Origin: Ehretia macrophylla
Lineage: Eukaryota > Streptophyta > Magnoliopsida > Boraginales > Ehretiaceae
NCBI GenBank assembly: GCA_037974665.1
Contig: CM075771.1
Span: 41,524,425 to 41,588,424, forward strand
Direction of reading: 5' to 3'
DNA: 64,000 nt
Shown piece after piece: positions 5,401-41,550 of this stretch. Every line of letters begins with the position of its first letter. Position 1 is the first letter of the stretch. The notes beneath the pieces are model-generated. The model was not told the origin of the DNA and did not search any database. It saw only the letters and a program-made list of their open reading frames with translations. A program made the position numbers and the translations under genes.

Positions 5401-6619
5401 TCCCAATGTGAAAAATTAAATGGCATACATGTGCATTGCATACAAGGTTGCAACCTTTCATTCTGGCATGGTAGCGTTCACGCACACCGGGCGGCATCGG
5501 GCTTGCCGGTGCAACTGTGACTACCATGGTCCAATTCCCTCTATCGCTTGGGGGCTGGACTTCCTCGGAGAGTTGGGTCGTAGGATTTCGGGGTACATCC
5601 GGAATACACCCATTTGGCGTGATAAGTGGATGATTTGATGTCGGCCGCAACAACTGATACTGGAAATAAATTGAGAGCAAAAGCTCACCGTATCCTTTTC
5701 ACAATGTGTATAAGTACTCTCACTTGGTTCCTAGAGGACCTCGGGGAGGAAAGACGGGTAATTATGGTTCTTTACTTTTATATTACGTTATATACTTGTG
5801 TTATATGTCATGCTTTCAAAAAAGGTTTTTCATAAGTTAACCGGAAAAAGAGTTTCAAAACGTATTTCTCGTTCCTCCTCGCTGAGTTCATAAGGACTCA
5901 CCCTCTTTTATCATCTCAGGTGAAGAAGACCAGGAACAGGTACCCGAAGGAAATGTGCTAGTTGATGAACCTTTGGAACGACTATGTGCATTGCGTGCTT
6001 TTCGTGAACATGGATGCTATTAGGGATGTTGTGTTTATTTGCGGACTCTTCATTTCGTTGATGTAATTGACCCCGTTGTAATTTGGGTCTAATTTTGGAT
6101 TGTACTATCTATAACTGGACAAACTCTTTATTTGGTTGTTTACTTTCGTTTTCTTAATTAGTAGTTATCGTAGGCATTTAAACCACTAGATGAACAATCA
6201 ACTAAGTTAATTCTATCTAATTTCACTTAGGTGCTTATTTGTAAACTAAAAGATAATAGGTACTTGCATGATAGAAAATTGACAAATAAACGGGACATAG
6301 TTATCATGTTAGGCTTATTAACTAAATGAGACTTTCAAGGTAGACTAGTAGGCATATCTGTTGATGACAAAATAGGAGTCCTTATTGGCATTGGATTAAT
6401 GATTGGAATAATTGAGACGTTTAGAGATTAGGTCAAACTAAAAGGTTTTAAATATAGCCGTTATGCCGCCGGTTTTTCGGGAAAAAAAAAAAAAAAACTT
6501 TTGGAGTCCTAGGCTAACGTTAAGCATTAATCATAGTGAAATTGTTAAAGACGCAAAATAACGATAATGATTAACTCACCCCCTAGTCTAGCCTCTATAG
6601 GTCGGGTTGGGGCGTGATA
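2455..6619 (+). mobile_element. Right-hand LTR of element A, Ty3/gypsy, same family as element B
   Basis: The LTR starts TGTGAGGCCCGACC and ends GGTTGGGGCGTGATA. It is collinear with the element B LTRs: the same pyrimidine-rich block, the same CATAAGGACTCACCCTC segment, and the same final GGTCGGGTTGGGGCGTGA. At 4,165 bp it is longer than B's 5' LTR (3,586 bp), partly because it carries three copies of an internal module of about 200 bp. Immediately after its last base the 340 bp satellite begins in mid-monomer, so this element was inserted in satellite DNA. It is old: many differences from B are visible. Confidence 0.85.
3740..4310 (+). repeat. Degenerate tandem module (about 200 bp x 3) inside LTR A
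   Basis: Three consecutive blocks start near 3740, 3940 and 4147. Each runs: GAGCGAAGCA-like start, GAAAATTGGTAGGT, CAGTTCTGGACAT or a variant, AGAAATAGACTAAGG, then TCTGACTCTAA. B's 5' LTR has two such blocks. The minus-strand open frames here are by-products of the repeat and not genes. Confidence 0.7.
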
Positions 6620-6651
6620 GCTACGCCTGTTTTCGGAGCCCAAAATCGAAC

Positions 6652-8358
6652 GTTGTCATAAGTTTCGCTACACATTTCCTCTTTTGCGGTGTTTTTCTGG
6701 CCCGAATTGTACGTCGTAAGTTGCAAAAAGGACGACAACCTAATCTATCACATTTCTATTATCGGATCCCATGGCACCTTGGGCTAGACAACTTCACTTC
6801 GCGTAGAGGCTGGGCCCACAAACAGAGGGTGTGGGGCTTGTGACCAGGTATCCGTCGCTCTGGTGCTAATAACTTTTGATCCGTAAGGAGTTATGCGGCG
6901 CACAACATACCGTTAGAAAGCACTCCGAGAGCTCTACGACGGGGGCACCAAGCTTGCACGGTTGTACCTATTTTCGGAGCCCAAAATCGAACGTTTTCAT
7001 CAATTTTGTGATATTTTTCTTTTTTTTTGCGCAGTTTTTTCGTCCCAAATAGTACGTCGTGAGCCGCGAAAAGGACAACAACCTAATCCATCACATTTCT
7101 ATTACCGAATGCCATGGTACCTTGGGCAAGACAACTTCACTTCACGTAGAGGCTGGGCCCGCAAACAGAGGGCGTGGGGCTTGTGACTAGGTATCCGTCG
7201 TTCCGGTGCCCATAATTTTTGATCCGTAAGGAGTTACACAGCGCACAACATACCGTTGGAAAGCTCTCCGAGAGCTCTACGACGGGGGCAGCAAGCCTAA
7301 TCAGCTGCGCCTATTTTCAGAGCCATTATCGAATGTTTTCATCAGTTTTGGGACACTTTTCTTATTTTGCGCTGTTTTTCCGTCCCAGATCGTATGTCGT
7401 GAGCCGCGAAAAGGACGATAACCTAATCCATCACATTTTTATTACCGAATTGCACGGCACATTGGGCAAGACAACATCACTTGACGGAGAGGATAGGCCT
7501 GCAAACAAAGGGCGTGGGGCTTGTGACCCGGTATCCGTGACTCCGGTGCTCATAACTTTTGATCCGTAAGGAGTTATGCGGCGCACAGCATACCGTTGGA
7601 AAGTTATCCGAGAGATCTACGACGGGGGCACCAAGGTTGCTCGGCTGCGCCTATTTTCAGAGCCCAAAATCGAACGTTTTCATCCGTTTCGGTTCACTTT
7701 TCTTCTTTGGCGCGGATTTTCCATCCCGGATCGTACGTCATGAACAGCGAAATGGACGACAACCTAATCCATCACATTTCTATTACCGAATCCCACGGTA
7801 CCTTGGGCAAGACAACTTCACTTCACGTAGAGGCTGGTTTCGCAAACAGAGGGCGTGGGGCTTGTGACCAAGTATCCATTGCTCCGGCACCCATAACTTT
7901 TGATCGGTAAGGAGTTACGCGGCGCACAGAATACCGTTGGAAAGCTCTCCGAGAGCTCTACGATGGGGGCACCAAGCCTGCTCAGTTGCGCCTGTTTTCA
8001 GAACCCAAAATCGAATGTTTTCATTAACTTTGGGACACTTTTCTTCTTTGGCGCTGCTTTTCTGACCCAGATCGTACGTTGTGAGCCACAAAAAGGACGG
8101 CAACCTAACCCATCACATTTCTATTACCGAATCACAGGGCACCTTGGGCAAGACAACTTCACTTCACGTAGAGGTTGGGCCTGCAAACAGGGTGCGTGGG
8201 GCTTGTGACCAGGTATCCATCGCTCTGGAGCCCATAACTTTTGATCCGTAAGGAGTTACGCGGCGCACAGCATACCGTTGGAAAGCTCTCCGAGAGCTCT
8301 ACGATTGGGGCACCAAGCCTGCATGGCTTCGCCTATTTTCGGAGCACAAAATCAAACA
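6652..8358. repeat. Satellite higher-order repeat, five-monomer block T-U-V-W-X
   Basis: From one T-type marker (GTCATAAGTTTCGCTACAC) to the next is 1,707 bp, which is five monomers. Type marks: T has GCTACACATTTCCTC and GGGCTAGACAAC; U has a long T run and GAATGCCATGGTACC; V has CCCATTATCGAA, TTTTTATTACC and GCACATTGGG; W has CGGATTTTCC or CAGATTTTTCGTC with GAACAGCG/GAGCAGCG; X has TTTTCTGACCC, CCCATCACA and GTGCGTGGGG. Confidence 0.8.
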
Positions 8359-11300
8359 TTGTCATAAGTTTAGCTACACATTTCTTCTTTTGCTTTGTTT
8401 TTCTGTCCCGGAACGTACGTCGTGAGCCGCGAAAAGGACGAGAACCTAATCTATCACATTTCAATTATCGGATCCCATGGCACCTTGGGCTAGACAACTT
8501 CATTTCGCGTAGAGGCTGGGCCCGCAAATAGAGGGCGTGGGGCTTGTGACCAGGTATTCGTCGCTCCGGTGCTCATAACTTTTGATCCGTAAGGAGTTAC
8601 GCGGCACACAACATATCGTTGGAAAGATCTCCGAGAGCTCTACGACGAGGGCACCAAGCTTGCATGGTTGTACCTATTTTCGGAGCCCAAAATTGAACAT
8701 TTTCATCAGTTTCGGGACACTTTTCTTTTTTTGCACAGTTTTTCCATCCCGAATCGTACGTCGTGAGCCGCGAAAAGGACAACAACCTAATCCATCACAT
8801 TTCTATTACTGAATGCAACGGTACCTTGGACAAGACAACTTCACTTCACGTAGAGGCTGGGCCCGCAAACAGAGGGCGTGGGGCTTATGACTAGGTATCC
8901 GTCGCTCCGGTGCCCATAATTTTTTATCCGTAATGAGTTACACGCGCACAGCATACCGTTGGGAAGCTCTCTGAGAGCTCTACGACAGGGGCAGCAAGCC
9001 TACTAAGCTACGCCTGTTTTCGGAGCCCATAATCGAACATTTTCATTAATTTTGGGACAGTTTTCTTGTTTTGCGTTGTTTTTCTGTCCCAGATCGTATG
9101 TTGTGAGCCGCGAAAAGGATGACAAATCCATCACAATTTTATTACCGAATCCCACAGCACATTGAGCAAGACAACTTCACTTCATGTAGAGGTTGGGCCC
9201 ACAAACAGAGGGCATGGGACTTGTGACCAGGTATCCGTCACTCCGGTGCTCATAACTTTTTATCCTTAAGGAGTTACGCGATGCACAACATACCATTGGA
9301 AAGCTCTCCGAGAGCTCTACGATGGGGGCACCAAGTCTGCTCAGCTGCGCCTATTTTAAGAGCCCAAAATCGAATGTTTTCATTATTTTTGGGACACTTT
9401 TCTTTTTTTGCGCTGCTTTTCTGACCCGGATCGTACGTCGTGAGCCGCGAAAAGGACGACAACCTAACCCATCACATTTCTATTACCGAATCACACAGCA
9501 CCTTGGGCAAGACAACTTCACTTCACGTAGAGGTTGGGCCCGCAAACAGAGTGCGTTAGGCTTGTGACCAGGTATCCGTCGCTCCGGTGCCCATAACTTT
9601 TGATCCGTAAGGAGTTACACGGTGCACAACATACCGTTGGAAAGCTCTCCGAGAGCTCTACGACTGGGGTACCAAACATGCTTGGCTGCGCCGGATTTTC
9701 GAGCCCATAATTGAACATTTTTATCAGTTTTGGGACACTTTTCTTCTTTTGCGCTGTTTTTCCGTCCCGGATCGTACGTCATGAGCTGCGAAAAGGACGA
9801 CAACCTAATCCATCACATTTTTATTACCGAATCCCACGGCACATTGGGAAAGACAACTTCCCTTCACGTAGAGGTTGGGCCCGCAAACAGAGGGCGTGGG
9901 GCTTATGACCAGGTATCTGTCACTCCGGTGCTTATAACTTTTGATTTGTAAGGAGTTACGCAGTGCACAGCATACCGGTGGAAAGCTCTCCGAGAGTTCT
10001 ACGATGGGGGCACCAAGTTTGCTCAGCTGCGCCTATTTTCGGAGCCAAAAATCTAACGTTTTCATAAGTTTTGGGACACTTTTCTTTTTATGCTCAGTTT
10101 TTTCGTCCCGGATCGTATGTCATGAGCCGCGAAAAGGATGACAACCTAATCCATCACATTTCTATTACGGAATGCCACGGCACCTTGGGCAAGACAACTT
10201 CACGTCATGTAGAGGATGGGCCCACAAACAGAGGGCGTGGGGCTTGTGACTAGGTATTCGTCGCTCCAGTGCCCATAACTTTTAATCCATACGAAGTTAC
10301 GCGGCGCACAACATACCGTTGGAAAGCTCTCAGAGAGCTCTACGACGGGGGCACCAATCCTGCTCAGCTGTATCTATTTTCGGAGTCCAAAATCGAATGT
10401 TTTCATTAGTTTTTGGACACTTTTCTTCTTTTGTGCTATTTTTCTTACCCGGAACGTACGTCGTGAGCCGCGAAAAGGACGACAACCTTACCCTTCACAT
10501 TTCTATTATCGAACCACACGGCACCTTGGGCAAGACAACATCATTTCACGTAGAGGTTGTGCCCGCAAACAGAGGGCGTGGGGCTTATGACCAAGTATCC
10601 GTCGCTCCGGTGCTCATAACTTTTGATCCGTTAGGAGTTACGCGGCGCACAACATACTGTTGGAAAGCTCGCAGAGAGCTCTAGGACGGGGGCACCAAAC
10701 ATGCTCGGCTGCGCCTATTTTTGGAGCCTAAAAGCAAACAATTTCATCAATTTCGGGTTACTTTTCTTGTTTTGCATAGTTTTTTCGTCCAGGTTCGTAC
10801 GTCCTGAGCCGCAAAAAGGACGACAACCTAATCCATCACATTTCTATTACCGAATCCCACGCACCTTGGGCAAGACAACTTCGCTTCATGTAGAGGATGG
10901 GCCCGCAAACAGAGGGCGTGGGGCTTGTGACCAGGTATCAGTTGCTCCTGTGCTCATAACTTTTGATCCATAATGAGTTACGCGGTGCACAGCATACCGT
11001 TGGAAAGCTCTCCGAGAGCTCTACGACGGGGGCACCAAGCTTGCTCGGCTGCGCCTGTTTTGGGGCCCAAAATCGAACGTTGTCATATGTTTCACTACAT
11101 ATTTTCTCATTTGCGCTGTTTTTCCCTCCAGGATCGTACGTCGTGAGCCGCAAAAAGGACAACCTAATCTATCACATTTCTATTATCGAATCCCATGGCA
11201 CCTTGGCCAAGACAACTTCACTTCGCGTAGAGGCTGGGCCCGCAAACAGAGGGCGTGGGCTTGTGACCAGGTATCCGTCGCTCTGGTGCTCATAACCTTT

Positions 11301-14206
11301 GATCCGTAAGGAGTTACGTGGTGCATAACATACTGTTGGAAAGCTCTCCGAGTGCTCTACAACGGGGGCACCAAGCTTGCAAAGCTTTGCCTATTTTCAA
11401 AGCCCAAAATCGAATGTACTCATCAGTTTCGGGACACTTTTCTTTTTTTGCACAGTTTTTCTGTCCTGAGTAGTACGTCGTGAGCCGCAAAAAGGACGAC
11501 AGCCAAATCCATCACATTTCTATTACCGAATGCCACGGCACCTTGGGCAAGACAACTTCACTTCACGTAGAGGCTGGGCCCGAAAACAGAGGGCGTGGCG
11601 CTTGTGACTAGGTACCCGTTGCTCCAGTGCCTATAACTTTTGATCCGTAAGGAGTTACGCACTCCGAGAACTCTACGACGGGGGCATCTAGCCTGCTCAT
11701 CTGTGCCTATTTTCGGAGCCCATATTCCAACGTTTTCATCAATTTTGGGACACTTTTCTTCTTTTGCGCTATTTTTTCGTCCCGGATCGTACGTCATGAG
11801 CCGCGAAAAAGACGACAACCTAATCAATCACATTTTTATTACCGAATCCCACAGCACATTAGGCAAGACAACTTCATTTCACGTAGAGGCTGGGCCCGTA
11901 AACAGAGGGCGTGGGGCTTGTGACCAGATATCCGTCGCTCTAGTGCTCATAACTTTTAATCCGTAAGGGGATACGCGGCGCACAGCATTCCGTTGGAAAG
12001 CTCTCTGAGAGCTCTACGACGGGGGCATAAAGCCTGCTCGGCTGTGCCTATTTTTGGAGCCCAAAATCGAACATTTTCATCAGTTTCAGGACACTTTTCT
12101 TCTTTTGCATAGTTTTTCCGTCCTGGATCGCACGTCGTGAGCCGCAAAAAGGATGACAACCTAATCCATCACATTTCTATTACTGAAGCCAACGACAGCT
12201 TGGGCAAGACAACTACACTTCATGTAGAGGCTGGGCACGCAGACAGAGGGCGTGGGGCTTGTGACCAAGTATCCGTCGCTCCGGTGCCTATAACTTTTGA
12301 TCCGTAAGGAGTTACGCGGCGCACAGCATACCGTTGGAAAGCTCTCCGAGAGCTCTACGACTGGGGTACCAAGCCTACTCGGCTACGCCTCTTTTCGGAA
12401 CCCAAAATCGAACGTTCTCATAAGTTTCGCTACACATTTCCTCTTTTGCGCTGTTTTTCTGTCTCGGATCGCACGTCGTGAACCGCGAAAAAGATGACAA
12501 CCTAATCTATCACATTTCTATTATCAGATCCTATGGCACCTTGGGCTAGACAACTTTACTTCGCGTAGAGGCTGGGCCCACAAACAGAGGGTGTGGGGCT
12601 TGTGACCAGGTATCCGTCACTTCGGTGCTCATAACTTTTGATCCGTAAGGAGTTACGCGGCGCACAGCATACCGTTGGAAAGCACTCTAAGAGCTCTACG
12701 ACAGGCGCAGCTAGCCTGCTCGACTGCGCCTGTTTTCAAAGCCCATATTCGAACATTTTCATCAGTTTTGGGACACTTTTCTTCTTTTGCACTTTTTTTC
12801 CGTCCCAGATCGTACGTCGTGAGCCGCGAAAAGGACGAGAACCTAATACATCACATTTTTAATAAATAATCCCATGGCACATTAGGCAAGATAACTTCAC
12901 TTCACGTAGAGGCTGGGCCTGCAAACAGAGGGCGTGGGGCTTGTGACCAGGTATCCGTCCCTCCGGTGCTCATAACTTTTGATCCGTAAGGAGATACGCG
13001 GCGCATAGCATACCGTTGGAAAGCTCTCCGAGAACTATACGATAGGGGCATAAAGCCTGCTCGGCTGTGCCTAATTTTGGAGCCCAAAATTGAACGTTTT
13101 CATCAGTTTCAGGATATTTTTCTTCTTTTGCGCAGTTTTTATGTCTTGGATCGTACGTCGTGAGCCGCGAAAAGGACGACAACATAATCCATCACATTTC
13201 TATTACCGAATCCCACAGCACCTTGGGCAAGTCAATTTCACTTGACGTAGAGGCTAGGCCCGCAAACAGAGGGCGTGGGGCTTGTGACTAGGTATCCGTC
13301 GCTACGGTGCCCATAACTTTTGATCTGTAAGGAGTTACGAGGCGCACAGCATACCGTTGGAAAGCTCTCCGAGAGCTCTACGACTGGGGCACCATGACTA
13401 CTTGGTTGCGCCTGTTTTCGAGGCCCAAAATAGAACGTTGTCATAAGTTTTGCTACACATTTCATCTTTTGCGCTGTTTTTCTATCCCGGATCATACGTT
13501 GTGAGCCACGAAAAGGATGACAACCTAATTTATCACATTTCTATTATTGGATCCCATGGCACCTTGGGCTAAAAAACTTCACTTCGCGTAGAGGCTGGGC
13601 CCAAAAACAGAGGGCGTAGGGCTTGTGACCAGGTATCCGTCGCTCCGGTGCTTATAACTTTTGATCTGTAAGGAGTTACACGGCGCACAGCATAACGTTA
13701 GAATGCACTCCGAGAGCTCTAAGAGGGGGGCAGCTAGCCTGGTCGGCTGCGCCTATTTTCGGAGCCCATATTCGAACGTTTTCATCATTTTTGAGACACT
13801 CTTCTTCTTTTGTGATGTTTTTTCGTCGCGGATCGTACGTCGTGAGCTGCAAAAAGGACGACAACCTTATCAATCACATTTTTATTACCGAATCCCATGG
13901 CACATTAGGCAATACAACTTCACTTCACGTAGAGGCTGGGCCCACAAACAGAGGGCGTGGGGTTTGTGACCAGGTATCTGTCGCACCGGTGCTCATAACT
14001 TTTGATCTGTAAGGAGATACGCAGCAACCTGCATACCGTTGGATAGCTCTCCGAGAGCTCTATGACGGGGGCATAAAGCCTGCTTAGCTGCACCTATTTT
14101 CGGAGCCCAAAATCGAACGTTTTCATCAGTTTCGGGATACTTTTCTTCTTTTGCACAGTTTTTCAATCCCGGATCTTACGTTGTGGCCGCGAAAAGGACG
14201 ACAACC

Positions 14207-14211
14207 TAATC
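14207..14211 (+). repeat. Target-site duplication TAATC, left copy
   Basis: Identical to 16841-16845. Removing 14212-16845 restores a continuous satellite monomer. Confidence 0.95.
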
Positions 14212-16840
14212 TGTGATAACCTGAACTCGGCATGCATTTAATGACATTTAATTGTATTTAATTAAGTGTTATCTTAAATGTTATCATTGAATTATGTGTT
14301 TATCTTTGGTTAAACATTTAATTGTAGCTTTATTTTCATATTTCTTTTGGAAGTAATTAAAATAATACTTGAGTTAATTATTTTAACGGAATATCACCTA
14401 CATTTCATATTTATGTCAATCGATTTTAGTTTTCTTGCACTTAAATGCTTGGATTTCAATTAAATGAAAAGTAACTCCAAGCCGGAGTAAATTTTAAACT
14501 ATGATGCTTTCCAAAAATGATATATTTCTTAGATTCTTTGAGGTTTAATTGTCACTTCTTGGTTGATGCAAAGTGCATAGCATATCAAGAGAGATAGTTA
14601 GGAAATGAATTCGAGTCCTCAGCAAATAGTGAAACTAATATTTAGATGACTTAAATTTTATAATTTAATTGTTGTTAGCTAGAATTAACATTTCCTTAGT
14701 TGTTTTAGCTTAAAAATGCATGAAAATAAGTCATTTTGACCAATTTTAAGTTGTTTGACCAAGTAGCCTTGACCTTTGACCAAATAGTCACCTTAATAAG
14801 CTTAAAACATAACAAAATAAAAAAAAAACAAAGCAAAGAAACAGAATGCAGCTGGCCGAAAATATGAAGGAAGAAAAAAAAAACCTTTCAACTTCAATTC
14901 TTTGATTTTTCGCGTGAGCTTGCACGGGGTGGTTTCCGAGGCGTCCTACGAGGTTTTCCTAGCGTCTAGGAGCGTCTAAGGTGAGGGTTTCATCGTTATT
15001 TGCGCATTTAAAAAATGTATGTCTAAACTTTAATTTTTAGAACTTATGCGTAGATTGTTGTTTTAATCATTTTGTTGCTTAAAGAATGTTCCTTGTTGAT
15101 TGTAGAACATGTATTTATAGCGTTTTAGCATTTTATGCGGTTGAAAATTGAAATTGCAATTTAAATTGATTAATGAATAGTAATTAGTGAATAGTAAACC
15201 CACGTTTCGATGAAGTTGCTCCGTTACACGTTCTGTTGATGTAGGAAGATGCTAGATATGCTAGAATGCCTAAATACATGGTTTAATTGGAATGTGTAAT
15301 GGAAAAATGGAGAAAAACGGCTTAGTGAAAGTCAGGGTCGTTTAGGTCGAGTTTGGCGTTTTCTCGTTTTGCGTGTTGACATTGTTTCTGGAGGCCATGG
15401 AAGCACTTTTGGTGTGATTATGGCGTTGGTTGGGTGTTTGGTTGGTATAGTTGTAGTTCAAACGAGCAAAGGGGAGAAATCAGGACTTTGCGTGAATTCT
15501 AGGGTAAAGTAGGGTTTCGGGGTCCTTAGACGTGCCTTATGGTGACCTAGAAGGGTTGGTGAAGTCAGTTTCCAGAACTCATGGCTCGTTTGGAAATGGT
15601 AGTGTTTTGTTAGTTGGGGCCGATTTGTGATTTTGCTTGTTATGCTTGAAAAGTTAGTTGAATGCTAGTATTGTTTGTGATTGCTTGTTATCTCGTTTGT
15701 TGGCACTAGTTTGTATTGTTGTGCTATCGCTCGTTTATCACCTTGTATCGAGTCTTGCATTGCTTAGTGTCTTGCGCGTGAGTGATGGGCCTCTCTGGGT
15801 AGCCTCGGGTTGCCAGTGTTGGTTGCTCTAGCTCCGCTGCTATTCCCTTTCTCGCTTGGGTTGCCTCCCAGGGAGATTTGGGTCGTAGAATTGATGGATA
15901 CTTCCGGGGTATTCCAAACTGGTGTTATAAGGTGGATGCGCGCTTATTGTCATCGTTGTCAACATCAAGCTCGAGATTGATGTATCGCTCGTAAAATGGT
16001 ATATTGCTCGTAAGAGTGAACCATAACCTTCAGAGTGTGGTATAGCTTTGAATGGTTGTGTTAATGCTTTCAATAATTGCTTATTGTATTGATTGTTTGT
16101 CTTGGTTGCTTGTTTATCAGTTATATTGCTTAACTGTCTTATTTGCATTGCACGACTTTCTTTCTCTCCAATTCGATATCTGTCTCTCCCTCACTGAGTA
16201 TACGTGGTATGTATACTCACTCCTCACCACCACATTTCAGGAAATGTCATGTTAGCTGGAAGTTCGTGATTTCGTGAAAGTTCGTTGCCTGAAGAGTTGT
16301 CTTGCGTGCCTATGTGGCTTGAGTGTCGAAGTTGTGAAGATATATGCTTTCATATGTTGTATGTATTTAATGCCAAAAAGTATGTAATTTAAGTTCCATT
16401 AGATTGTTGAAGTAGTTTGATAAGTTAGATTATGTATCTAGTTATTATAATTTAACTTCAAATGCATGTTTGTAATGTCCAAAAGAAAAGAATTAGAATG
16501 GCATGATAGTTTATTTTATGTAGTAGCTTAGTATGGTTTAGTTGCCTAGTTTGAGTGTACTTGTCAAAAATGAAAAGAGATAGGTTAGCTTTTAAATTGG
16601 AAATGTATGTATACTTGCTGAGTTTAATTGTTGAGAACCAAGGCTCGGATGGCCTTGAGGTGTTTGTATGGTTGGACTCGGTGTTGGTCCACTTATATGC
16701 TGTCGCAGGTTTTACATTTCGCCTAGAAACAGGGGAGACTCCGTCCGTTTTCCCTGAAAATTTATGCCTGGGTTTGGTTTGGGTAGTGATTAGATCGATT
16801 GATAGAACTCCCGGTCTCGAGAGGGACCGGGGGTGTTACA
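14212..16840 (+). mobile_element. Solo LTR, Ty3/gypsy type, 2,629 bp, in satellite
   Basis: The satellite monomer is interrupted between GACAACCTAATC and TAATCCATCACA. The inserted DNA starts TGTGATAACCTG and ends GGGGGTGTTACA, the expected LTR termini, and is flanked by a perfect 5 bp duplication TAATC (14207-14211 and 16841-16845). No primer-binding site, coding sequence or second LTR is present, so it is the product of LTR-LTR recombination. Its right half shares blocks with the element C LTR (CAAGGCTCGGATGGCCTTG; GGGGAGACTCCGTCCG), which indicates a related chromovirus family. Confidence 0.95.
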
Positions 16841-16845
16841 TAATC
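16841..16845 (+). repeat. Target-site duplication TAATC, right copy
   Basis: Matches 14207-14211 exactly and is the first five bases of the resumed satellite monomer. Confidence 0.95.
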
Positions 16846-17092
16846 CATCACATTTCTATTACCGAATCCCACGGCACATTGGGCAAGACAACTTCACTTC
16901 ACGCAGAGGCTGGGCCTGCAAACAGAGGGCGTGTGGCTTATGACTAGTTATCCGTCGCTCCGGTGCCCATAACTTTTGATTCGTAAGGAGTTACGCGGAG
17001 CACAACATACCGTTGGAAAGCTCTCCGAGAGCTCTACGACTGGGGCACCAAGCCTACTCAGCTGCGCCTGTTTTCGGAGCCCAAAATCGAAC

Positions 17093-18798
17093 GTTGTCAT
17101 AAGTTTCGCTACACATTTCCTCTTTTGCGCTATTTTTCTGTCCCGGATCGTACATCGTGAGCGGCGAAAAGGACGACAACCTAATCTATCACATTTCTAT
17201 TACTGGATACCATGGCATCTTGGGCTAGACAACTTCACTTCGCTTAGAGGCTGGGCCCACAAACAGAGGGCGTGGGGCTTATGACCAGGTATCCATCGCT
17301 CCGGTGCTCATAACTTTTGATCCGTAAGGAGTTACGCGTCTCACAACATACTGTTAGAAAGCTCTCCGAGAGCTTTACGATGGGGGCACCAAGCTTGCAT
17401 GACTGTGCCTATTTTTGGAGCCCAAAATCTAACGTTTTCATCAGTTTCTTGACATTTTTCTTTTTTTTTGAGCAGTTTTTCCGTCCCGAATCGTACGTCG
17501 TGAGTCGTGAAAACGCCGACAACCTAATCCATCACATTTCTATTACCGAATGCCACGGTACCTTGGGCAAGACAACTTCACTTCATGTAGAGGCTGGGCC
17601 CGTAAATAGAGGGCGTGGGGCTTGTGACTAGGTATCCGTCGCTCCGGTGCCTATAATTTTTGATCCGTAAGGAGTTACACAGCACACAGCATACCGTTGG
17701 AAAGCTCTCCTAGAGCTCTACGACGGGGCAACAATCCTACTCAACTGCGCCTATTTTCGGAGCCCATTATTGAATGTTTTCCTCAGTTTTGGGACACTTT
17801 TCTTATTTTGCGCAGTTTTTCTGTCCCGAATCGTACGTCGTGAGCCTTGGAAAGGAAGATAACCTAATCCATCACATTTTTCTTACCGAATCCCACAGCA
17901 CATTAGGCAAGACAACTTCACTTCACGGAGAGGATGGGCCTACAAACAGAGGGCGTGGGGCTTATGACCTGGTATCTGTGACACCGGTGCTTATAACTTT
18001 TGATCCTTAAGGAGTTACGCGACGCACAACATACCGTTGGAAAGTACTCCGAGAGCTCTACGACGAGGGCACCAAGCTTCCTTGACTGCGCCTGTTTTCA
18101 GAACCCAAAATCGAACGTTTTCATCAGTTTCGGGACACTTTTCGTCTTTTGCGCAGATTTTTCGTCTCAGATCGTACGTCGTGAGCAGCGAAAAGGATGA
18201 CAACCTAATCCATCACATTTCTATTACCGAATCCCACGGCACCTTGGGCAAGACAACTTCACTTCACGTAGAAGCTGGGCCCGCAAACAGAGGGCGTGGG
18301 GCTTGTGACCAGGTATCCATCGCTCCGGTGTCCATAACTTTTGATCCATAAGGAGTTACGAGGCGCACATCATACCGTTGGAAAGCTCTCCGAGAGCTCT
18401 ACGACGAGGGCACCAAGCCTGCTTAGCTACAATTATTTTCAGAGCCCAAAATCAAATGTTTTCATTAGTTTTGAGACACTTTTCTTCTTTTGCGCTGTTT
18501 TTCTGACCCGGATAGTATGTCGTGAGCTGCGAAAAGGACGACAGCCTAACCCATCACATTTCTATTACTGAATCACATGGCACCTTGGGCAAGACAACTT
18601 CACTTCACGTAGAGGTTGGGCCAGCAAACAGAGTGCGTGGGGCTTATGACCAGGTATCCGTCGCTCCGGTGCCCATAACTTTTGATCCGTAAGGAGTTAC
18701 GCGGCGTACAGAATACTGTTGGAAAGCTCTCCGAGAGCTCTACGATTGGGGCACCAAGCCTGCTCGGCTGCACCTATTTTCGGATCCCAAAATCGAAC
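17093..18798. repeat. Satellite higher-order repeat, second five-monomer block T-U-V-W-X
   Basis: 1,706 bp, same order and type marks as the block at 6652-8358. Recurrence of the full five-type order 10 kb apart supports a real higher-order unit over random variation. Confidence 0.8.
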
Positions 18799-21700
18799 GT
18801 TGTCATAAGTTTCACTACACATTTCCTCTTCTGCATTTTTTTTCTGTCCCAGATCGTACGTCGTGAGCTGCGAAAAGGACGACAACCTAATCTATAACAT
18901 TTCTATTATCGGATCCCATGGCACCTTGGGCTAGACAACTTCACTTCGCATAGAGGCTGGGCCTACAAACAGAGGGCGTGGGGCTTGTGACCAGGTATCC
19001 GTCGTTCCGGTGCTCATAACTTTTGATCCGTATGGAGTTACTCGGCACACAGCATACCGTTAGAAAGCTCTTCGAGAGCTCTACGATAGGGGCACCAAGC
19101 TTGCACGGCTGTGCTTATTTTCGGAGCCCAAAATCGAACGTTTTCATCAGTTTTGGGACATTTTTATTTTTTTGAGCAGTGTTTCCGTCCCGAATCGTAC
19201 GTCGTGAGCCGCGAAAAGGACGACAGCCTAATCCATCACATTTCTATTACCGAATGCCATGGTACCTTAGGCAAGACAACTTCACTTCACGTAGAGGTTG
19301 GGCCCGCAAACAGAGGGTGTAGGGCTTGTGACTAGGTATCTGTCGCTCCGGTGCCTATAATTTTTGATCCGTAAAGAGTTACACAGCGCACAGCATACCG
19401 TTGGAAAGCTCTCCAAGAGCTCTACGACGGGGGTAGCAAGCCTACTCGGCTGCGCCTATTTTCGGAGCCCATTATCGAACGTTTTTATCAATTTTGGGAC
19501 ACTTTTCTTATTTTGCCCTGTTTTTCAGTCCCAGATCGTACGTCATGTGCCGCGAAAAGGACGATAACCTAATCTATCACATTTTTATTACCGAATCCCA
19601 CGGCACATTGGGCAAGAAAACTTCACTTCACGGAGAGGTTGGGCCTGCAAACAGAGGGCATGGGGCTTGTGACCCTGTATCTGTGACTCCGGTGCTCATA
19701 ACTTTTGATCCGTAAGGAGTTATGCGACACACATCATACCGTTGGAAAGTTATCTGTGAGCTCTACAATAGGGGCACCAAGCTTGCTCGGTTGCGCTTGT
19801 TTTCGGAGCCCAAAATCGAATATTTTCATCCGTTTTGGGACACTTTTCTTCTTTTACGTAGATTTTTCGTCCCGGATCGTACGTCGTGAGCAGCAAAAAG
19901 AACGACAACCTAATCCATCACATTTCTATTATCGAATCCCACGGCACCTTGGGCAAGACAACTTCACTTCACGTAGAGGCTGGGCCCAAAAATAGAGGGC
20001 GTGGGGCTTGTGACCAGGTATCCATCGCTTCGGTGCCCATAACTTTTGATCTGTAAGGAGTTACGAGGCGCACAACATACCGTTGGAAAGCTCTCCGAGA
20101 GCTCTATGACGGGGGCACCAAGCCTGCTCAACTGTGCCTGTTTTTAGAGTCCAAAATTGAACATTGTCATAAGTTTCGCTACACATTTCCTCTTTTGCGC
20201 TGTTTTTTTGTCATGGATCGTACGACGTGAGCCGCAGAAGGGCGACAACCAAATCTATCACATTTCAATTATCAGATCCCATGGCACCTTGGGCTAGACA
20301 ACTTCACTTCGTGTAGAGGCTGGGCCCGCAAATAGAGGGCGTAGGGCTTGTGACTAGGTATCCGTCGCTCCGGTGCTCATAACTTAGGATCCGTAAGGAG
20401 TTACGCGGCGCACAGTGTACTGTTGGAAAGCTCTCTGAGTGCTCTACGACGGAGGCACCAAGCTTGCAAAGTTGTGCCAATTTTCGGAGCCCAATATCAA
20501 ACATTTTCATCAGTTTCGGGTCACTTTTCTTTTTTTGCTCAATTTTTTCAGACCGAATCGTATGTCGTGAGCCGTGAAAAGGACGACAACCTAATCCATC
20601 ACATTTCTATTACTGAATCCAACGGCACCTTGGGCAAGACAACTTCATTTCACATAAAGGCTGGGCCCGCAAATAGAGGGCATGGGGCTTGTGACCAGGT
20701 ATCCATCGCTCAGGTGCCCATAACTTTCGATCCGTAACGAGTTACGAGGCGCACAGCATACCGTTGGAATGCTCTCTGAGAGCTCTACGATGGGGACACC
20801 AAGCCTGCTCAGCTGCACCTATTTTCTGAGCCCAAAATCGAATGTTTTCATTAGTTTTATGACACTTTTCTTTTTTTGCGCTATTTTTCTGGCCCAGATG
20901 GTATGTCGTCAGCCGCAAAAAGGACAATAACCTAACCCATCACATTTCTATAACCGATTCATACGGTACCTTGGGCAAGACAACTTCACTTCAAATAGAG
21001 GTTAGGCCCCCAATCAGAAGGCGTGGGGCTTGTGACCAGGTATCCGTCGCTCCTGTGCCCATAACTTTTGATCCGTAAGGAGTTACACGGCGCACAGCAT
21101 ACCGTTGGAAAGCTCCCTGAGAGCTCTACAACTGAGGTGCCAAGCCTACTCGGCTGCGCCTATTTTCGAAACCTAAAATCGAACATTGTCATAAGTTTCG
21201 CTACACATTTCCTCTTTTGCGCTTTTTTCTGTCCCGGATCGTACGTCGTGAGCCGCGAAAAGGATGACAACCTAATCTATCACATTTCAATTATCGGATC
21301 CCATGGCACCTTGGGCTAGACAACTTCACTTCGCGTAGAGGCTGGGCCTGCAAATAGAGGGCGTAGGGCTTGTGACCAGGTATCCGTCGCTTCGGTGCTC
21401 ATAACTTTTGATTCGTAAGGAGTTACGCGGCGGACAACATACCGTTGGAAAGCTCTCCGAGAGCTCTACGATAGGGGTACCAAGCTTGCACGGTTGTGCC
21501 TATTTTCGGAGCCCAAAATCTAACATTTTCATCAGTTTCGGGACACTTTTCTTTTTTTGCGAAGTTTTTTCGTCCCGAATCGTACGTCGTGAGCCGCGAA
21601 AAGGACGACACCCTAATCCATCACATTTCAATTACTGAATGCCATGGTACCTTGGGCAAGACAACTTCACTTCACGTAGAGGTTGGGCCCGCAAACAGAG

Positions 21701-24153
21701 GGCGTGGGGCTTGTGACTAGGTATCCGTCGCTCCGGTGCCCATAATTTTTGATCCGTAAGGAGTTACACGGCGCACAGCATACCGTTGGAAAGCTCTCCG
21801 AGAGCTCTACGACGGGGGCAGCAAGCCTACTCAGCTGCGCCTATTTTCAGAGCCCATAATTGAACGTTTTCATCAATTTTGGGATACTTTTCTTGTTTTG
21901 CGCTGTTTTTCTGTCCCGGATCGTACGTCGTGAGCCGCGAAATGGATGACAACCTAATCCATCACATTTTTATTACCGAATCCCACAATACATTGGGCAA
22001 GACAACTTCACTTCATTTAGAGGTTGGGCCCGCAAACAGAGGGCGTGGGGCTTGTGACCGGGTATCCGTCACTCCGGTGCTCATAACTTTTGATCCGTAA
22101 GGAGTTACGCGGCGCACAGCATACCGTTGGAAAGTTCTTCGAGAGCTCTACGACGGGGGCACCTAGCCTGCTCAGCTGCGCCTGTTTTTAGAGCCTAAAA
22201 TTGAATGTTTTCATTAGTTTTGGGACACTTTTCTTCTTTTGCGCTGTTTTTCTGACCCGGATCGTATGTCGTGAGCAGCGAAAAGTACGACAACCTAACC
22301 CATCCCATTTCTATTACCGAATCACATGGCACCTTGGGCAAGAAAACTTTACTTCACGTAGAGGTTGGGCCCGCAAACAGAGTGCGTGGGGCTTGTGACC
22401 AAGTATCCGTCGCTCCGGTGCCCATAACTTTTGATTCGTAAGGAGTTACATGGCGCACAGCATACCGTTGGAAAGCTCTCTAAGAGCCCTACGACTGGGG
22501 CACCAAGCCTGCTCGGCTGCGCCTATTTTCAGAGCCCAAAATCGAACGTTTTCATAAGTTTCGCTACACATTTTCTCTTTTGCCCTATTTTTCTGTCTAG
22601 GTTCGTACGTCGTAAGCCGCGAAAAGGACGACAACCTAATCTATCACATTTCTATTATCGGATCCCATGGCTCTTTGGGCTAGACAACTTCACTTCGCGT
22701 AGAGGCTGGGCCCACAAACAAAGGGTGTGGGGTTTGTGACCAAGTATCCGTCGCTCCGATGCTCATAACTTTTGATCCGTAAGGAGTTACGCGGCGCACA
22801 GCATACCGTTAGAAAGCTCTCCGATAGCTCTACAATGGGAGCACCAAGCTTGCACGGTTATGCATATTTTCGGAGCCCAAATTCGAATATTTACATCAGT
22901 TTCGGGATATTTTTCTTTTTTGGCGCAATTTTTCCGTCCTGAATCGTACGTTGTGAGCCTCGAAATGGACAACAACCTAATCCATCACATTTCTATTAGC
23001 AAATGCCACGGTACTTTGGGCAAGACTACTTCACTTCACGTAGAGGCTGGGCCCGCAAACAGAGGTCGTGGGGCTTGTGACTAGATATCCGTCGCTCCGG
23101 TACCCATAATTTTTTATCCGTAAGGAGTTATATGGTGCACAGCATACCGTTGGAAAGTTCTCTGAGAGCTTTACGATGGGGGAAGCAAGCCTACTAGGCT
23201 GCGCCTGTTTTCGGAGGCCATTATCGAATGTTTTCATCAGTTTTGGGATACTTTTCTAGCTTTGCGCTGTATTTCGGTCCCGGATCGTATGTCGTGAGCC
23301 TAAAAAAGGACGATAACCTAGTCCATCACATATTTATTACCGAATCCCATGGCACATTGGGCAAGACAACTTCACTTCACGTAGAGGTTGGGCCCGCAAA
23401 CAGAGGGCGTGAGGCTTGTGAACAGGTATCTGTCACTCCGGTGCTCATAACTTTTGATCCGCAAGGAGTTACGCGGCACACAACATATCGTTGGAAAGCT
23501 CTCCGAGAGCTCTACGACGGGGGCACCAAGCTTGCTCAGCTGCGCCTACTTTTAGAGCCCAAAATCGAACGTTTTCATCAGTTTTGAGACACTTTTCTTC
23601 TTTTGAGTAGTTTTTTCGTCCCAGATCGTATGCCATGAGCCGCGAAAAGGACGACAACCTAATCCATCACATTTTTATTACCAAATTCCACAGCACATTG
23701 GGCAAGACAACTTCACTTCATGTAGAGGCTGGGCCGGCAAACAGAGGGTGTGTGGCTTGTGACTAGGTATCTGTCATTCCGGTGCTCATAACTTTTGATC
23801 CGTAAGGAGTTACGCAGCGCACAACATACCGTTGGAAAGCTCTCCGAGTGCTCTATGACGGGGTCACCAAACTTTCTTGGCTGCGCCTGTTTTCAGAGCC
23901 CAAAATTGAATGTTTTCATCAGTTTCGGGATACTTTTCTTCTTTTACACCGTTTTTCCATCCCGGATCGTACGTCGTGAGCCGTGAAAAGGACGACAACC
24001 TAATCCATCACATTTCTATTATCGAATCCCACGGCACCTTGGCCAAGACAACTTCGCTTGACGTAGAGGCTGGGCCCGCAAACAGAGGGCGTGGGGCTTG
24101 TGACCAGGTATCCGTCGCTCAGGTGCTCATAACTTTTGATCCGTAAGGAGTTA

Positions 24154-27100
24154 TATGAGGCCTGATCTCGATTTGTGTGTGATACCTCGTTTTGTGTACC
24201 CTAAACCTAGATTTGCGTGCCTTGACCTAGGTTTAAAAGTCATGTTTCGTTTTGTGTGCCTTTAATTGAATTACGTGCATACATTTAGGGTTACGTGCAT
24301 TTACTTGAGAATCGTGCATTCGTCTCGTAGTTTGTGCCTTACCTCGTAGTACGTGCCCTAGACCTAGGAAAGCATGCCCATACACTAATCAAGAAAGCAT
24401 CTTACACGAAGCACTAGATTATTAATTAATCCTACAAATTCCACTAACTAATATTAAAATGCCAATTCAACTCACTAGAAGATGAAATCTCACAAAAAAG
24501 CTAGACATTCTTATTCTTTATTCCTTATTCTTTTGCACATCCCAAACACACAATTAAATAATGCTCAAAAGATGACAAAAATTCAGAATTTTGCAAGCCT
24601 TGGCCGACCACTTTTTGTATTTGTGCTTGCTTTGCATAATTCAAAATTAAACCTAGACATCCTATGTCAAGCTCATGACAAATCACTTAAAAAATGCATT
24701 AAAAAAATGAATCCAAAGCTCCACAATCTCGACACACTCAAATTTCCCATGCTAGACAATTCAAATTAAGCTCCTTGAGGACACAAATTCTGAATTTTGC
24801 AAGCCCTAGGCCGACACATGCATCAAATTCTTCAAGCTTTTCATTTTCTTTCATTCCTTCTCTCTTTCTCTCATTTTTCTCTCACTCCTCTCATTTCTTC
24901 TCTCTCTCTCTCGGCCCTTGGCTGCAATTCTACTCTCCATAGCTTGAGTTCATCATCCTAAGGTTCATCAAGGCATTCAAGATACTAGGAAGCTCGACCA
25001 AGCAAGCTAGAAAGCAAAAGACACACATGCAAGTTCATTCGGCCCTTAGGTATGGTTGATAGCTCCTATTTCATTTCCTTTTTGTTCTAGCCACTTGCAC
25101 ATACTAAGAACATGGTTATTAAGCTAGGAATTAGAGAATCTCAAGTTGTCTCTTGGCTAAGCAAGGAAAAAGGATGACCTTGTGCATCATCAAGAGTTTT
25201 GTGCATCTTCATTGTTGTCTTGGTAAGGTGAGGTCTAAAACTCTTTTGAAAAGCTTTCAAAAACCACATTCATGCCTTTAAATGTCTATTTTTACCTCTG
25301 TACTCATGATATATGTATGTACATGAGCTTTTGTAAACATGCATGGCAAGATATTTGGCTAGAATGTGAAGATAGGTGAAATCGCGTATTTGGCAGCTTT
25401 CTCTTTTGTTGGAGTGAAGTGAATTTGACCAAGTAAATGATATTGAAAATGCTGAAAATTGGTCGGTAACTAGTTTTTCCAGTTCTGAGAATTTTTCATA
25501 GAAATATGTCAAAGCTAATTTTGACTCTAAAGACCCCAAAATGGTAAAACATCGAAAGGTGTCCAAATTTGGATAATCTGGGAAAATGAAGCAGGTTTTG
25601 GCAGATTCACTGTTCTTGTAGAACGAACCAGTTTTGAATTAGTAAATGATATCCAAAATCCATGAAATTTGGTGTGATGATATATTTTTCAGTTCTGGAC
25701 ATTTTTTTCAGAAATAGACTAAGGCTAAATCTGACCCTAAGATCCTCAAAAACGACAAGCATTGAAATGTGTACAAATCTGGACAGTTTTGCGTAGTCTC
25801 ACGGTTTTGGCTATAAGTCTTGAACCCGAACTCCGAATGATGCGAGGTTTGTTTCTGGATTTCGTTCACTCCTTAAGATTTAATTTAACATTTTTTTCAC
25901 TGGAATTGGAGATTTTTTTGCGTGTCTCAATGATTGTGAGAATACAGACCATTGCAGTAGGATTTTCATCTAGTGATATGCTTTGAAAATTATTGTAACT
26001 TCTCTTGTTGTATTAAATGCTTGGGATTGTGGCACTTGGATGTTGTGTGGACTGTTTTGAATGCTTGAGGATATTTTAATTAATTGATGCATGGCTTGAG
26101 TTTAATTACATGACAACTTGGGGCTTAATCGGACGGGTGAGCAAGAATTGAAACCCTAATGACTAGGAAAACTCGCTAAGTGTTGATCCTATGGATATCG
26201 TGTTTAATTATGTGATTAGTAGGCTGCCCGTAGTTGCCCTTATAGCCCTAAATGTGATTCCGATGATTACATGTTGACAAGTAGGCCTTTTTTGCACCCG
26301 GTCCTACGTAAACGTCGTTGCATGTTGTATGACCTTTTTATTTGATTACGTGAACTTCGAAATGAGTTATATGACTTGATTTACATGTGTTACATGGCTG
26401 CCCGTTTAATATTCATATAAATCCATGTGCTTTATAAGTGAAATTACTTGTCATATCGTGCCTCGCGTGATTACTTGTCAATGTGCAATCTTATGACTGC
26501 TCAGAGGCAACCTACTTTGTTGTCCTCCTAATATGATATATTAAATGTCATAAATGTGCATTGCATACAAGGTTGCAACCTTTCATTCTGGTGTGGTAGC
26601 GTTTCACGCATACCGGGAGGCATCGGGCTTGCCGGTACAACCGTGACTACCATTGTTCAATTCCCTCTCTCGCTTGGGGGCTAGACTTCCTCGGAGAGTT
26701 GGGTCATAGGATTTTGGGGTACATCCGCAGTACACCCATTTGGCGTGATAAGTGGATGATTTGAAGCCGGCCGCAACAACTGATACTGGAAATAAACTGA
26801 GAGCAAAAGCTCACCGTATCCTTTTCACTATGTGTATAAGTACTCTCGCTTGGTTCTTAGAGGACCTCGGGGAGGAAAGATGGATAATTGTGTTCTTTTA
26901 CTCTTATATTACATTATGAACTTACTTGTGATATATGTCATGCTTACAAAAGGGTTTTCATAAGTTGAACCGGAAAAAGAGTTTCAAAACTTATTTCTCG
27001 TTTCCCCTCGCTGAGTTCATAAGGACTCACCCTCTTTAATCATCTCTGGTGAAGAAGACCAGGAACAGGTACCCGAGGACAATGTGCCTAATGATAACTC

Positions 27101-27739
27101 CTTGGAATGATTGCTTGCCCTACGTGCCTTACTTGACTATGGCCATTTTGTGAACGATATGTTGCTTGAAGACTATTTTTTATGTTGCTTGTTAGTGTAT
27201 TGTAAATGACCCCCGTTGTAATTTGGGGTCTAATTTTGGGTTGTACTGATCATAACTAGATAGATACTCTTATGGTCGTTTTTGCTATCGCTACTGGTTA
27301 GTATCTATCACAGGCTTATGAAGTATCAGGTAAAGGATTAAGTAAAATGAATCTATCCAATCTTAAACAGGTACTCATTGTTAAGCTAAGATCAACAGGT
27401 ACTTTTGTAACAAGAATTAACAAACAAATGAGACATAGTATCATGCTAGGTTATTAGTCAAACGAGACTTCGAGATAACTAGTAGGCGTTTCGATGGGTG
27501 ATAAATAGTAATCTTAGTTGGAAATGAAATTGAGATGGGAAATTTTGAGGCGTTTAGAAAATTAGGTCAAATTAAAGAGCCCAATTACAGCCGTTATGCT
27601 GCCGGTTTTCCGGAGAATTTGTTGAGTTTAGGCTAAACGTTAAGTATTATACCTTCATGAACAATTAAGTACGTGAAAAGACTTGAATGTTTAGCTCACA
27701 CCCTAGTTTAACCTCTATAGGTCGGGTTGGGGCGTGACA
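24154..27739 (+). mobile_element. Element B 5' LTR
   Basis: Begins TATGAGGCCTGATCTCG, which corresponds to TGTGAGGCCCGACCTCG in the 3' copy, and ends GGGTTGGGGCGTGACA. It contains a TC-rich tract near 24840-24915, two copies of the roughly 200 bp module, and the conserved ACTACCAT...GTACATCCG block near 26640-26750. The 3,586 bp length is typical of the long-LTR chromovirus lineage. Confidence 0.9.
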
Positions 27740-30700: not shown

Positions 30701-32574
30701 TGGTAGAGTGATTGCGTATGCCTCTAGAAAATAAAAGTCGTATGAATTGAACTACCCGACGCATGATTTGGAGTTAGCAGCTATTGTGTTTGCACTCAAG
30801 AAATGGATGCACTATCTGTGGGGTAACAAGTTCGAGGTGTTTACTGATCACAAGAGCTTGAAATACTTGTTCTCACAAAAAGAGTTAAACGTGAGGCAAA
30901 GACGGTGGATGGAGCCTTTGGATGATTATAACTGCACAATCAATTATGTGCCCGGTAAAGCAAATGTAGTTGCAGATGCCTTAAGTCGGAAGACGAGCAT
31001 GGCAAAACTGGAAGTTAAGGTGCAAGAGTTGTTAGAGGAAGCATTTTTGTGGAAACCATAATTGACTCAAAAAGGATTACTATTTACCACTACACAAGTT
31101 CAATCGACCTTGTTGTCTGAATTACGAGAGGCTCAATAGAAGGACCAACAATTTTAGAAGATTAAAGAAAGCAACACAGATGTCAAGTTTCATGATGATG
31201 ATATTTGGAGGTTTAGGAATCGAATTTGTGTTCCTAATGAGCCAGAGCTGAAAAAGAAGATTATTGAAGAAGCCCATAATTCAAGATACACTATTCACCC
31301 CGGCAGAACAAAGATGTACCGGAATTTGAAGCAACACTATTGGTGGAATAACATGTAGAGAGAGATTGCAGAATTTGTGGCACGGTGTTTGACTTGCTAG
31401 AGAGTCAAAGCAGAACATCAACGACCAGCAGGTTTACTTCAATCGTTGGAGATTCCTCAATGGAAATGGGAACATATAACTATGAACTTTGTCATGGACC
31501 TGCCCAGGTCACAAAAAGGTCATGACGCCGTTTGGGTCATAGTGGATAGATCGACTAAGTCAGCACGCTTCTTACCGATGAACAAAGAGGATAGTCCTGA
31601 GAAATTGGGAGATATGTATGTGGCGGATATTGTAAGGTTGCACGGGATGCCTGTGAGTATTGTATCGGATAAGGATCCTCGTTTTACTTCCTGGTTTTGG
31701 AAGAGATTACAAGAAGCTTTGGGAACGAAGTTGAGTTTCAACACGGCTTATCACCCTCAGACTGATGGACAATCTGAGAGAACTATTCAGATTCTGGAGG
31801 ATATACTGAGGGCGTGTGTTTTAGACTTCGGGAAAGGTTGGGAGAAATATCTGTCTCTAGCGGAGTTCGCTTATAATAACAGTTATCAGGCCACTATCGG
31901 GATGGCCCCTTTTGAGGCGTTGTATGGACGTAAGTGTCGATCCCCAATTTACTGGGATGAAGTAGGTGAGATGAAGACTTTTGACCCGACCCTTCTACCT
32001 AAACTTATGAAGACTGTTGATAATGTCCACCTTATCCGGAAATGGATGTTTACCGTCCAAAGCAGGCAGAAAAGTTATGCAGACCGACGGAGACGGAGTC
32101 TAGAGTTTGAGGTCAGCGACAAGGTGTTCTTGAAGATATCACCTCGGAGGGGACTGATTAAGCACGGCAAGGGTAAAAAGTTAAGCCAGAGGTTTGTAGG
32201 ACCATTTGAGATAATTGAGAAGGTTGGCAAATTGGCGTATCGCTTGGAACTACCCCAAAACCTCTCCAATATTCACGACGTCTTTCATGTTTCAATGCTA
32301 CGGAAGTATCACCCTGATCCATCGCATATCTTGGAGCCAGAGCCGTTGCAGCTTCGGGAGAACTTGTCTTATGAAGAGAAGCCCGTTCGGATCCTAGACC
32401 AGCATGATCGGGAGTTGCGCAACAAATCTATACCAATGGTAAAAGTGTTGTGGGATTACCATGGAGTTGAAGAAGCATCGTGGGAAAGGCGAGACCAGAT
32501 GGAGCAACAGTATCTAGCATTATTTCAAAGGTAATATCGAATTTCGGGACGAAATTCTTTTAAGGAGGGGAGGA

Positions 32575-41543: not shown

Positions 41544-41550
41544 CCTTAAG

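Follow-up and report, generated by a model that had tools for sequence, protein, structure and literature searches.

A 5S rDNA-related satellite array with ordered monomer types in Ehretia macrophylla, probably an old copy of a block found at several loci

A stretch of 64,000 nucleotides from Ehretia macrophylla (C8:41,524,425-41,588,424), here called the window, carries a satellite array in which several types of a ~341 bp monomer follow one another in a recurrent order. Where does such an order come from, and what is the satellite? An earlier note on this DNA had attributed reduced blocks of the order T-U-V-W-X to repeated unequal exchange within a higher-order unit. Comparison with the rest of the assembly (1.58 Gb, 20 contigs of 39 to 126 Mb) points elsewhere: the array is quite probably an old block copy, no longer homogenised, from the 5S-gene-free branch of a very large satellite family related to 5S ribosomal DNA (rDNA). 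Coordinates without a contig prefix are window positions, and m1-m44 are the monomers of the array at 6620-24153.

The relation to 5S rDNA is visible on C1, from which six samples of 3.5 kb each were taken. Five of the six contain units of ~679 bp (one of 580), composed of a 341-bp module plus a segment of ~338 bp with a 5S rRNA gene and a T-run in it. Rfam RF00001 detected 24 5S rRNA genes in these five samples (77-106 bits) and none in the sixth, whose sequence is pure 341-bp satellite; a scan of the window with Rfam at gathering scores gave no match. The consensus of the C1 679-bp units is 95.9% identical to the window consensus over 342 bp, which is the homology of monomer to 5S gene or spacer by which a 5S rDNA-derived satellite is recognised. 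Likewise, at 12 of 12 loci around the best 5S matches we found units of 665-689 bp with satellite matches. The C1 samples were the first pattern hits listed and the 12 loci those with the best 5S scores, neither being a random set. A diverged monomer in the remaining half of the 679-bp unit was rejected: its match to the monomer scores 29, with a mean of 32 for shuffled sequence.

A tree was built from 341 gene-free modules (monomers with a contiguous neighbour) and 64 gene-linked modules, the latter kept by a length and start filter from 67 possible units between neighbouring 5S genes in 17 loci (the three dropped include a 580-bp unit in locus L032). The tree is unrooted and separates both kinds with 0 errors and a support of 0.948. 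Since the split falls on one branch, a single loss or gain of the gene segment suffices. The genes themselves differ between samples: both promoter boxes are present in strict form in 35 of 46 genes at the best 5S loci and in 4 of 18 on C1, where conservation of the genes is little above that of the spacer (93.8% vs 91.3%), and thus most of the sampled C1 copies look like pseudogenes.

Either form could have come first. A satellite could have received a ~338 bp 5S rDNA unit, for instance from an extrachromosomal circle, in one of its monomers, with later amplification of the composite, a course of events compatible with the block-copy origin of the array. The 5S-bearing segment measures ~338 bp, a usual size of a complete plant 5S repeat; the consensus has short, imperfect direct repeats on either side of it (ACCTTA / ACTTTA), possibly a target duplication; and gene-free monomers are about as many as gene-linked ones by pattern count. 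However, the same repeats would serve just as well for deleting the gene segment, and they fit loss and gain alike. Also, one exact pattern for a 338-bp gene-only array found 0 matches, a weak argument, as the pattern covers the C1 variant only. We regard the priority of the satellite as a serious possibility, if on the doubtful side, and lean slightly and provisionally to a spacer that lost its gene.

Both branches are abundant. Each pattern count rests on one pattern of 30-31 bases and is a lower bound; with at most two mismatches, the module 30-mer gives 285,410 matches genome-wide, the 5S core 172,400 and the gene-free junction 185,077, with 0 for each reversed control. By arithmetic on these lower bounds, the gene-free form (341 bp per copy) takes up ~63 Mb and the 5S-linked form (677 bp per copy) ~117 Mb, together ~11% of 1.58 Gb. 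The pattern for the 5S-form junction was found 10,465 times; it mainly fits the C1 variant and badly undercounts. A covariance-model search for 5S returned 274,483 first-look candidates, of which 47 were scored and 47 passed. On C8, samples of 700 bp at 14 points contained satellite at three, with the broken match pattern of the 5S-linked form at 38.0 and 40.0 Mb (form judged from satellite matches alone) and the gene-free form at 43.0 Mb; the remaining 11 samples, from 10 to 80 Mb, contained no satellite, and further gene-free matches on C8 lie at 13.8, 43.3 and 47.1 Mb. These positions are consistent with a heterochromatic domain around mid-C8 and some outlying copies, and the location of the array, at 41.5 of 96.0 Mb, is no more than suggestive of a centromeric role.

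Turning to the order itself, the array holds 44 monomers of ~341 bp (a solo long terminal repeat, LTR, excluded) of types T, U, V, W and X, plus one Y. Types were called by average-linkage clustering (k=5) of the 44 window monomers and by a second clustering over six regions, with 359 monomers including partial ones, 340 of them near-complete and typed (cluster letters B=T, E=U/W, C=V, H=X and D=Y). Mean identity in the window is 87.2% within types and 83.5% between them, the adjacent monomer is the nearest relative in 0 of 44 cases (chance ~2), and the mutual information of successive clusters, 0.86, exceeds the maximum of 5000 shuffles (0.70). The recurrent order proposed earlier is therefore real, as is the closer kinship of same-type monomers across blocks than of neighbours, and the full T-U-V-W-X string occurs twice, in frames slightly shifted from those first given.

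The number of types needs revision. When the types of the six-region clustering are mapped on a tree of the 44 monomers, T forms a clean clade (10/10, support 0.99), V a clade of 10 plus one foreign monomer (0.92), X one of 5 plus one foreign (0.97) and U/W one of 12 plus four foreign (0.86). T, V and X of the five original types thus stand, clean or nearly so, whereas U and W are barely separable over the six regions (U-U 88.3%, W-W 88.0%, U-W 86.7%) and fall in one cluster in both analyses (5 in the window, E over six regions). The two clusterings conflict on a few monomers; m19 and m22, for example, are grouped apart with m16 in the window clustering and with V over the six regions. A sixth type, Y, accounts for 28 of the 340 near-complete monomers, one of them in the window, and the blocks are not all subsets beginning with T, as had been thought, for m10-m13 read V-W-X-Y. 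Over the six regions T passes to U/W in 55 of 64 cases, X to Y in 26 of 69 and to T in 21 of 69, and Y to T in 19 of 23. The string T-U-V-W-X was found 10 times, with Y next in 3, so that the five-type unit probably represents a six-type one from which Y is missing.

Of the two marks of a higher-order repeat (HOR), types recurring in order are found here, as the transition information and the T to U/W steps show, but whole-period units far more alike than neighbours at one clear period are not: identity is highest at lag 5, with 84.9%, while the remaining lags from 1 to 21 give 83.5% to 84.8%. The 1.7-kb periodicity is weak, and the array is at most a decayed, irregular HOR.

A search for the same order elsewhere in the assembly, which the earlier note had advised, was successful. 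We compared the window with loci on C3 (39.5 Mb), C7 (44.7 and 49.2 Mb; the two loci are labelled C7a and C7b), C8 (13.8 Mb, C8b, and just left of the window, C8a) and C10 (6.4 Mb), chosen as best matches to a window monomer and not a random sample. Following a shared LTR, the types read BECEHBECHCEHDBECE in the window, BECEHBECHCEHDBEHDBECE at C7 49.2 Mb, BEECEHBECHCEHDBEHD at C8 13.8 Mb and BECHCEHDBECEBCEBC on C3. Scores for collinear alignment with the window were 1.07 (C3), 0.78 (C7a), 0.96 (C7b), 0.60 (C8b) and 0.26 (C10), with maxima in 100 shuffles each of 0.25, 0.31, 0.30, 0.25 and 0.13. Permutations within types, which keep the type string, reached at most 0.60, 0.50, 0.50, 0.33 and 0.24, respectively, and the observed score in 0 of 200 at each of the five regions. 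Therefore the loci agree not just in the succession of types but in the individual monomer found at each place, C10 by a narrow margin.

Could the order nevertheless be a local product? A T-U-V-W-X unit still shortened and rebuilt by unequal exchange within the array would account for the ordered subsets and the two full copies in the window, and also for length differences of an entire block between loci: the T-U-V-W-X that comes first behind the shared LTR in the window and C7 copies is missing from the C3 copy. Some of these differences resemble the loss or gain of complete ordered blocks, as exchange between units predicts, and to this extent the exchange proposed earlier keeps its place. 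Against it stands the same irregular order on other chromosomes (C3, the two C7 loci and C8 at 13.8 Mb, weakly C10), dependent on monomer position within type. Position-matched monomers at C3, C7a, C7b and C8b are 90-91% identical to those of the window, same-type monomers at other positions 87-88%, and the position-matched value exceeds the same-type mean elsewhere for 36/41, 22/25, 32/40 and 14/15 monomers, respectively. Best same-type pairs reach 94% (average ~87%), and 37 of 44 window monomers have their best match in one of the five other regions, a count biased by the 291 monomers held there. Because the loci share the irregular order, and next to it LTR insertions at matching monomer positions, most of the reduced blocks are ancestral and were copied with multi-kb segments, the reductions being mostly older than the spread of the block. 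Exchange at this site as the source of the reduced blocks is largely refuted and, as a general account of the array, unlikely; an order inherited from the copied block has mostly taken its place. An array of ordered types need not imply local exchange.

The insertions mentioned concern two monomer positions that carry LTRs at several loci, a reverse LTR at 114-118 and a forward LTR at the 340/1 boundary. Target duplications of the reverse LTR read ACGAC/ACGAC at C8a, ACGAC/ACGAT at C7a and ATGAC/ATGAC on C3; at C7b, C8b and C10 only one flank is preserved or lies within the fetched DNA. Those of the forward LTR read GCTGC/GCTAC (C8a), GTTGC/ACTGC (C7a) and GCTGC/ACTGC (C7b), with the right junction only at C8b, C3 and C10. 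Late, independent insertions were first suggested by LTRs 95-96% identical between loci where the satellite is 90% identical; transversions and the closely similar C7 pair allow for faster change of the satellite instead. Transversion divergence is 7.3% between gene-free and gene-linked modules, 5.9% between different types in the window and 4.2% within a type; between loci it is 2.7-3.6% for satellite at the same position and 1.0-1.8% for the shared LTRs (two reverse LTRs were left out, the interrupted one on C3 and the one at C7b 37249, which runs past the edge of the fetched DNA). For the young C7 duplication (44.69 vs 49.19 Mb) the values are 0.47% for satellite and 0.22% for LTR. The satellite/LTR ratio is therefore alike in the older loci (1.7 to 2.3) and in the C7 pair (2.1), so that LTRs and arrays can share one age. 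CpG amounts to 6.2% in the satellite and 2.1-2.5% in the LTRs. Most simply, the block and its insertions were copied together; the differing duplications leave room for repeated insertion. An additional forward LTR at the 340/1 boundary in C8a is 79% identical to the others and has a duplication of its own, GCTGT/GCTGT, and therefore at least two insertions probably hit this boundary. Two LTR copies, at C8a 1266-5001 and C7b 20537-24132, proved to be separate insertions, 78-80% identical to the rest.

From these data we propose the following history. The 341-bp monomer is homologous to the spacer module of the ~679-bp 5S rDNA units and belongs to a gene-free clade apart from the gene-linked one. 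An ordered unit may first have formed in an ancestral array by unequal exchange or rolling-circle amplification, and the types with their T-U-V-W-X-Y-like order predate the arrival of the block at its several loci. Segmental duplication, or ectopic exchange among heterochromatic regions, could have spread the copies, presumably together with the LTR insertions that they bear at the same monomer positions. The copies have since come to differ position by position, the present array being, on this proposal, inert heterochromatin.

Several points weigh against this history. Collinear identity is only ~90%, on an alignment path itself selected by identity, and C10 is barely above its control (0.261 vs a permutation maximum of 0.242). 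Duplications of the reverse LTR vary between loci and that of the forward LTR on C7a is imperfect; such differences would also fit independent insertions at preferred sites, in which case copying would not be proved by the insertions held in common, while the shared monomer order would remain. The gene-free module could be the older state. Finally, the sampling of C8 covers just 14 points, each of 700 bp, and that of the 5S-linked units sites picked by pattern or 5S score.

Two other origins fare much worse. The 5S-linked units might be tandem elements of Cassandra, a terminal-repeat retrotransposon in miniature (TRIM) with 5S within its LTR, whose tandem arrays resemble 5S rDNA (PMC7215508). 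This is very improbable, as the primer-binding site TGGTATCAGAGC is absent beside the 5S-bearing segment in 64 of 64 units: the best match per unit has 4 mismatches in 56, 3 in 6, 5 in 1 and 2 in 1, and shuffled sequences give 3 to 5. The T-run, which follows the gene in 64 of 64 units, is not decisive, for Cassandra can share it (terminators are mentioned in PMC7215508). It is scarcely credible that the array forms the interior of a non-autonomous LTR element. Its edges do coincide with an LTR end and an LTR start, with exact junctions to one Ty3/gypsy family on both sides, but solo LTRs in either orientation lie within the satellite, flanked by 5-bp duplications that are themselves satellite sequence. 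Downstream of the left LTR, at 6620, there is no primer-binding site, and a polypurine tract precedes that LTR, which therefore closes an element of its own.

The Ty3/gypsy family that interrupts the array raises a question of its own. With up to 3 mismatches allowed, the junction between LTR 3' end and monomer position 1 has 484 matches in the genome (none for the reversed pattern), and among the 100 matches listed of the 484 its variants look like both array forms. The junction in opposite orientation at position 118 occurs 21 times, 8 of which read like the 5S-linked form, and this site may also have been hit repeatedly. These two junctions, position 1 forward and position 118 reverse, are the ones counted genome-wide. 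With 35,762 LTR 3' ends in the genome and ~11% of it satellite, uniform insertion would give ~4 per position and orientation, a generous figure, as LTR ends facing their own internal region are also counted. Further, two copies near the window sit at the same position with LTRs just 79% identical and distinct duplications (GCTGT/GCTGT and GCTGC/GCTAC). Judging from such junctions, the family may integrate at a preferred nucleotide position and orientation in the 5S-related satellite, a tentative idea for which we see a nearly even chance; copying of insertion-bearing arrays is a possible alternative cause of the 484 matches. A loose start-site expression search for LTR/satellite junctions returned mostly false matches inside the satellite and was left unused. 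If the preference is real, the 5S-related satellite would be a sequence-specific landing site of an LTR retrotransposon and would allow the choice of sites by a Ty3/gypsy integrase to be studied in a plant.

How does this family compare with known systems? That ordered types are less often documented in plants, as the earlier note held, is a weak claim in view of PMC4053949, which finds clear HORs in 76 of the 171 species for which it had Sanger data and describes them as widespread in both kingdoms. The plant HORs in that study share with the present array several monomer types in repeated order; unlike them, same-type monomers here are only ~87% alike and an irregular order is shared between chromosomes. 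Unexpected are rather the 5S relation of the satellite and its size. A 5S rDNA repeat turned abundant satellite is also seen in the centromeric repeat of Hoplias malabaricus (via PMC12692304) and in PcP190 of frogs (PMC11675491); PcP190 retains a 120-bp 5S-like conserved region, whereas in Ehretia one branch lacks the gene and is made up solely of the spacer module, with gene-bearing arrays present as well. Among plants, PLsatB of Plantago lagopus, with a 325 bp monomer, is likewise related to 5S rDNA, but is nearly confined to the B chromosome (2.95% of +B reads vs 0.08% of 0B reads; PMC6410184), while the satellite described here lies on many of the 20 large chromosomes and makes up ~11% of the genome in two forms. 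Extreme copy number of 5S rDNA is known from pike (Esox; ~20,000 by reads, >200,000 by slot blot), where it is (peri)centromeric on 30-38 chromosomes; its unit is ~220 bp, its genes are mostly potentially functional, and a spacer-only satellite is not mentioned in the accessible parts of that report (PMC5437419). Satellites derived from the 45S intergenic spacer of potato, Vicia sativa and Phaseolus (via PMC12692304) share the relation to an rDNA spacer and differ in rDNA class. Titles and abstract openings from a partial literature describe no plant in which a 5S satellite made of spacer only reaches this scale, from which no absence from print is claimed. Satellite and 5S rDNA array form, within a single genome, the two branches of one repeat family, which by pattern counts amounts to ~180 Mb, a scale that lets gene loss or gain, homogenisation, copying from chromosome to chromosome and retrotransposon targeting be read from an assembly.

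The annotated parts of the window are collected in Table 1.

Table 1. Satellite array, selected monomer blocks and LTR elements in the window.
Feature	Position	Strand	Details
Satellite array, 5S-gene-free form	6620..24153	+	Period 341 by Tandem Repeats Finder
First T-U-V-W-X block, monomers 1-5	6620..8324	+	Clusters 1-5-3-5-4; six-region clustering B-E-C-E-H
Second T-U-V-W-X block, monomers 24-28	17060..18765	+	Clusters 1-5-3-5-4; six-region clustering B-E-C-E-H
Monomer 13, sole type Y monomer of the window	10707..11046	+	Six-region clustering
Solo LTR within monomer 23	14212..16840	+	5-bp target site duplication TAATC at 14207-14211 and 16841-16845
Ty3/gypsy 3' LTR adjoining the first satellite monomer	2455..6619	+	Polypurine tract at 2440-2454
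Ty3/gypsy 5' LTR terminating the array	24154..27739	+	tRNA primer-binding site TGGTATCAGAGC next, ~27751
Interrupted pol remnants of the element starting at 24154	29112..32534	+	Protease, reverse transcriptase; integrase, core match below cut-off
3' LTR of the element starting at 24154	32575..36359	+	Internally duplicated; final part missing

The satellite that directly follows the left LTR begins at monomer position 1, and the 5' partner of this LTR lies outside the window (C8:41,519,820-41,523,990; 95.3% identity between the two). The duplication inside the 3' LTR of the right-hand element spans ~840 bp (33440-34278 / 34271-35109, 93.6% identity). Another Ty3/gypsy element, at 39080-49011, has one open frame of 1617 residues, a weak chromodomain match below cut-off and LTRs 99.6% identical, and is a recent insertion. 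A separate short tandem array of ~65-bp units (7 copies, 77% matches) occupies 55699-56166.

Copying of segments was also observed elsewhere in the assembly. The C7 stretches at 44.66-44.70 and 49.175-49.205 Mb (L020-L026) have 54 monomer positions in common at 98.2% and an LTR at 99.2%, and are a young segmental duplication. Stretches of 3,119 bp of 5S array were compared at C2 87.98 Mb, C12 67.27 and 69.13 Mb and C10 9.52 Mb (L054-L057): L055, L056 and L057 are 98.4-99.0% identical to L054, but 88-89% when offset by one unit, and therefore multi-unit 5S blocks have recently been copied between chromosomes. Finally, on C3 the satellite is interrupted by a 4.5-kb insertion between L017 and L018 (~C3:39,543,748-39,548,219), whose ends TCTCCAACAG and CTGTTGGAGA are inverted repeats and which is possibly a DNA transposon.

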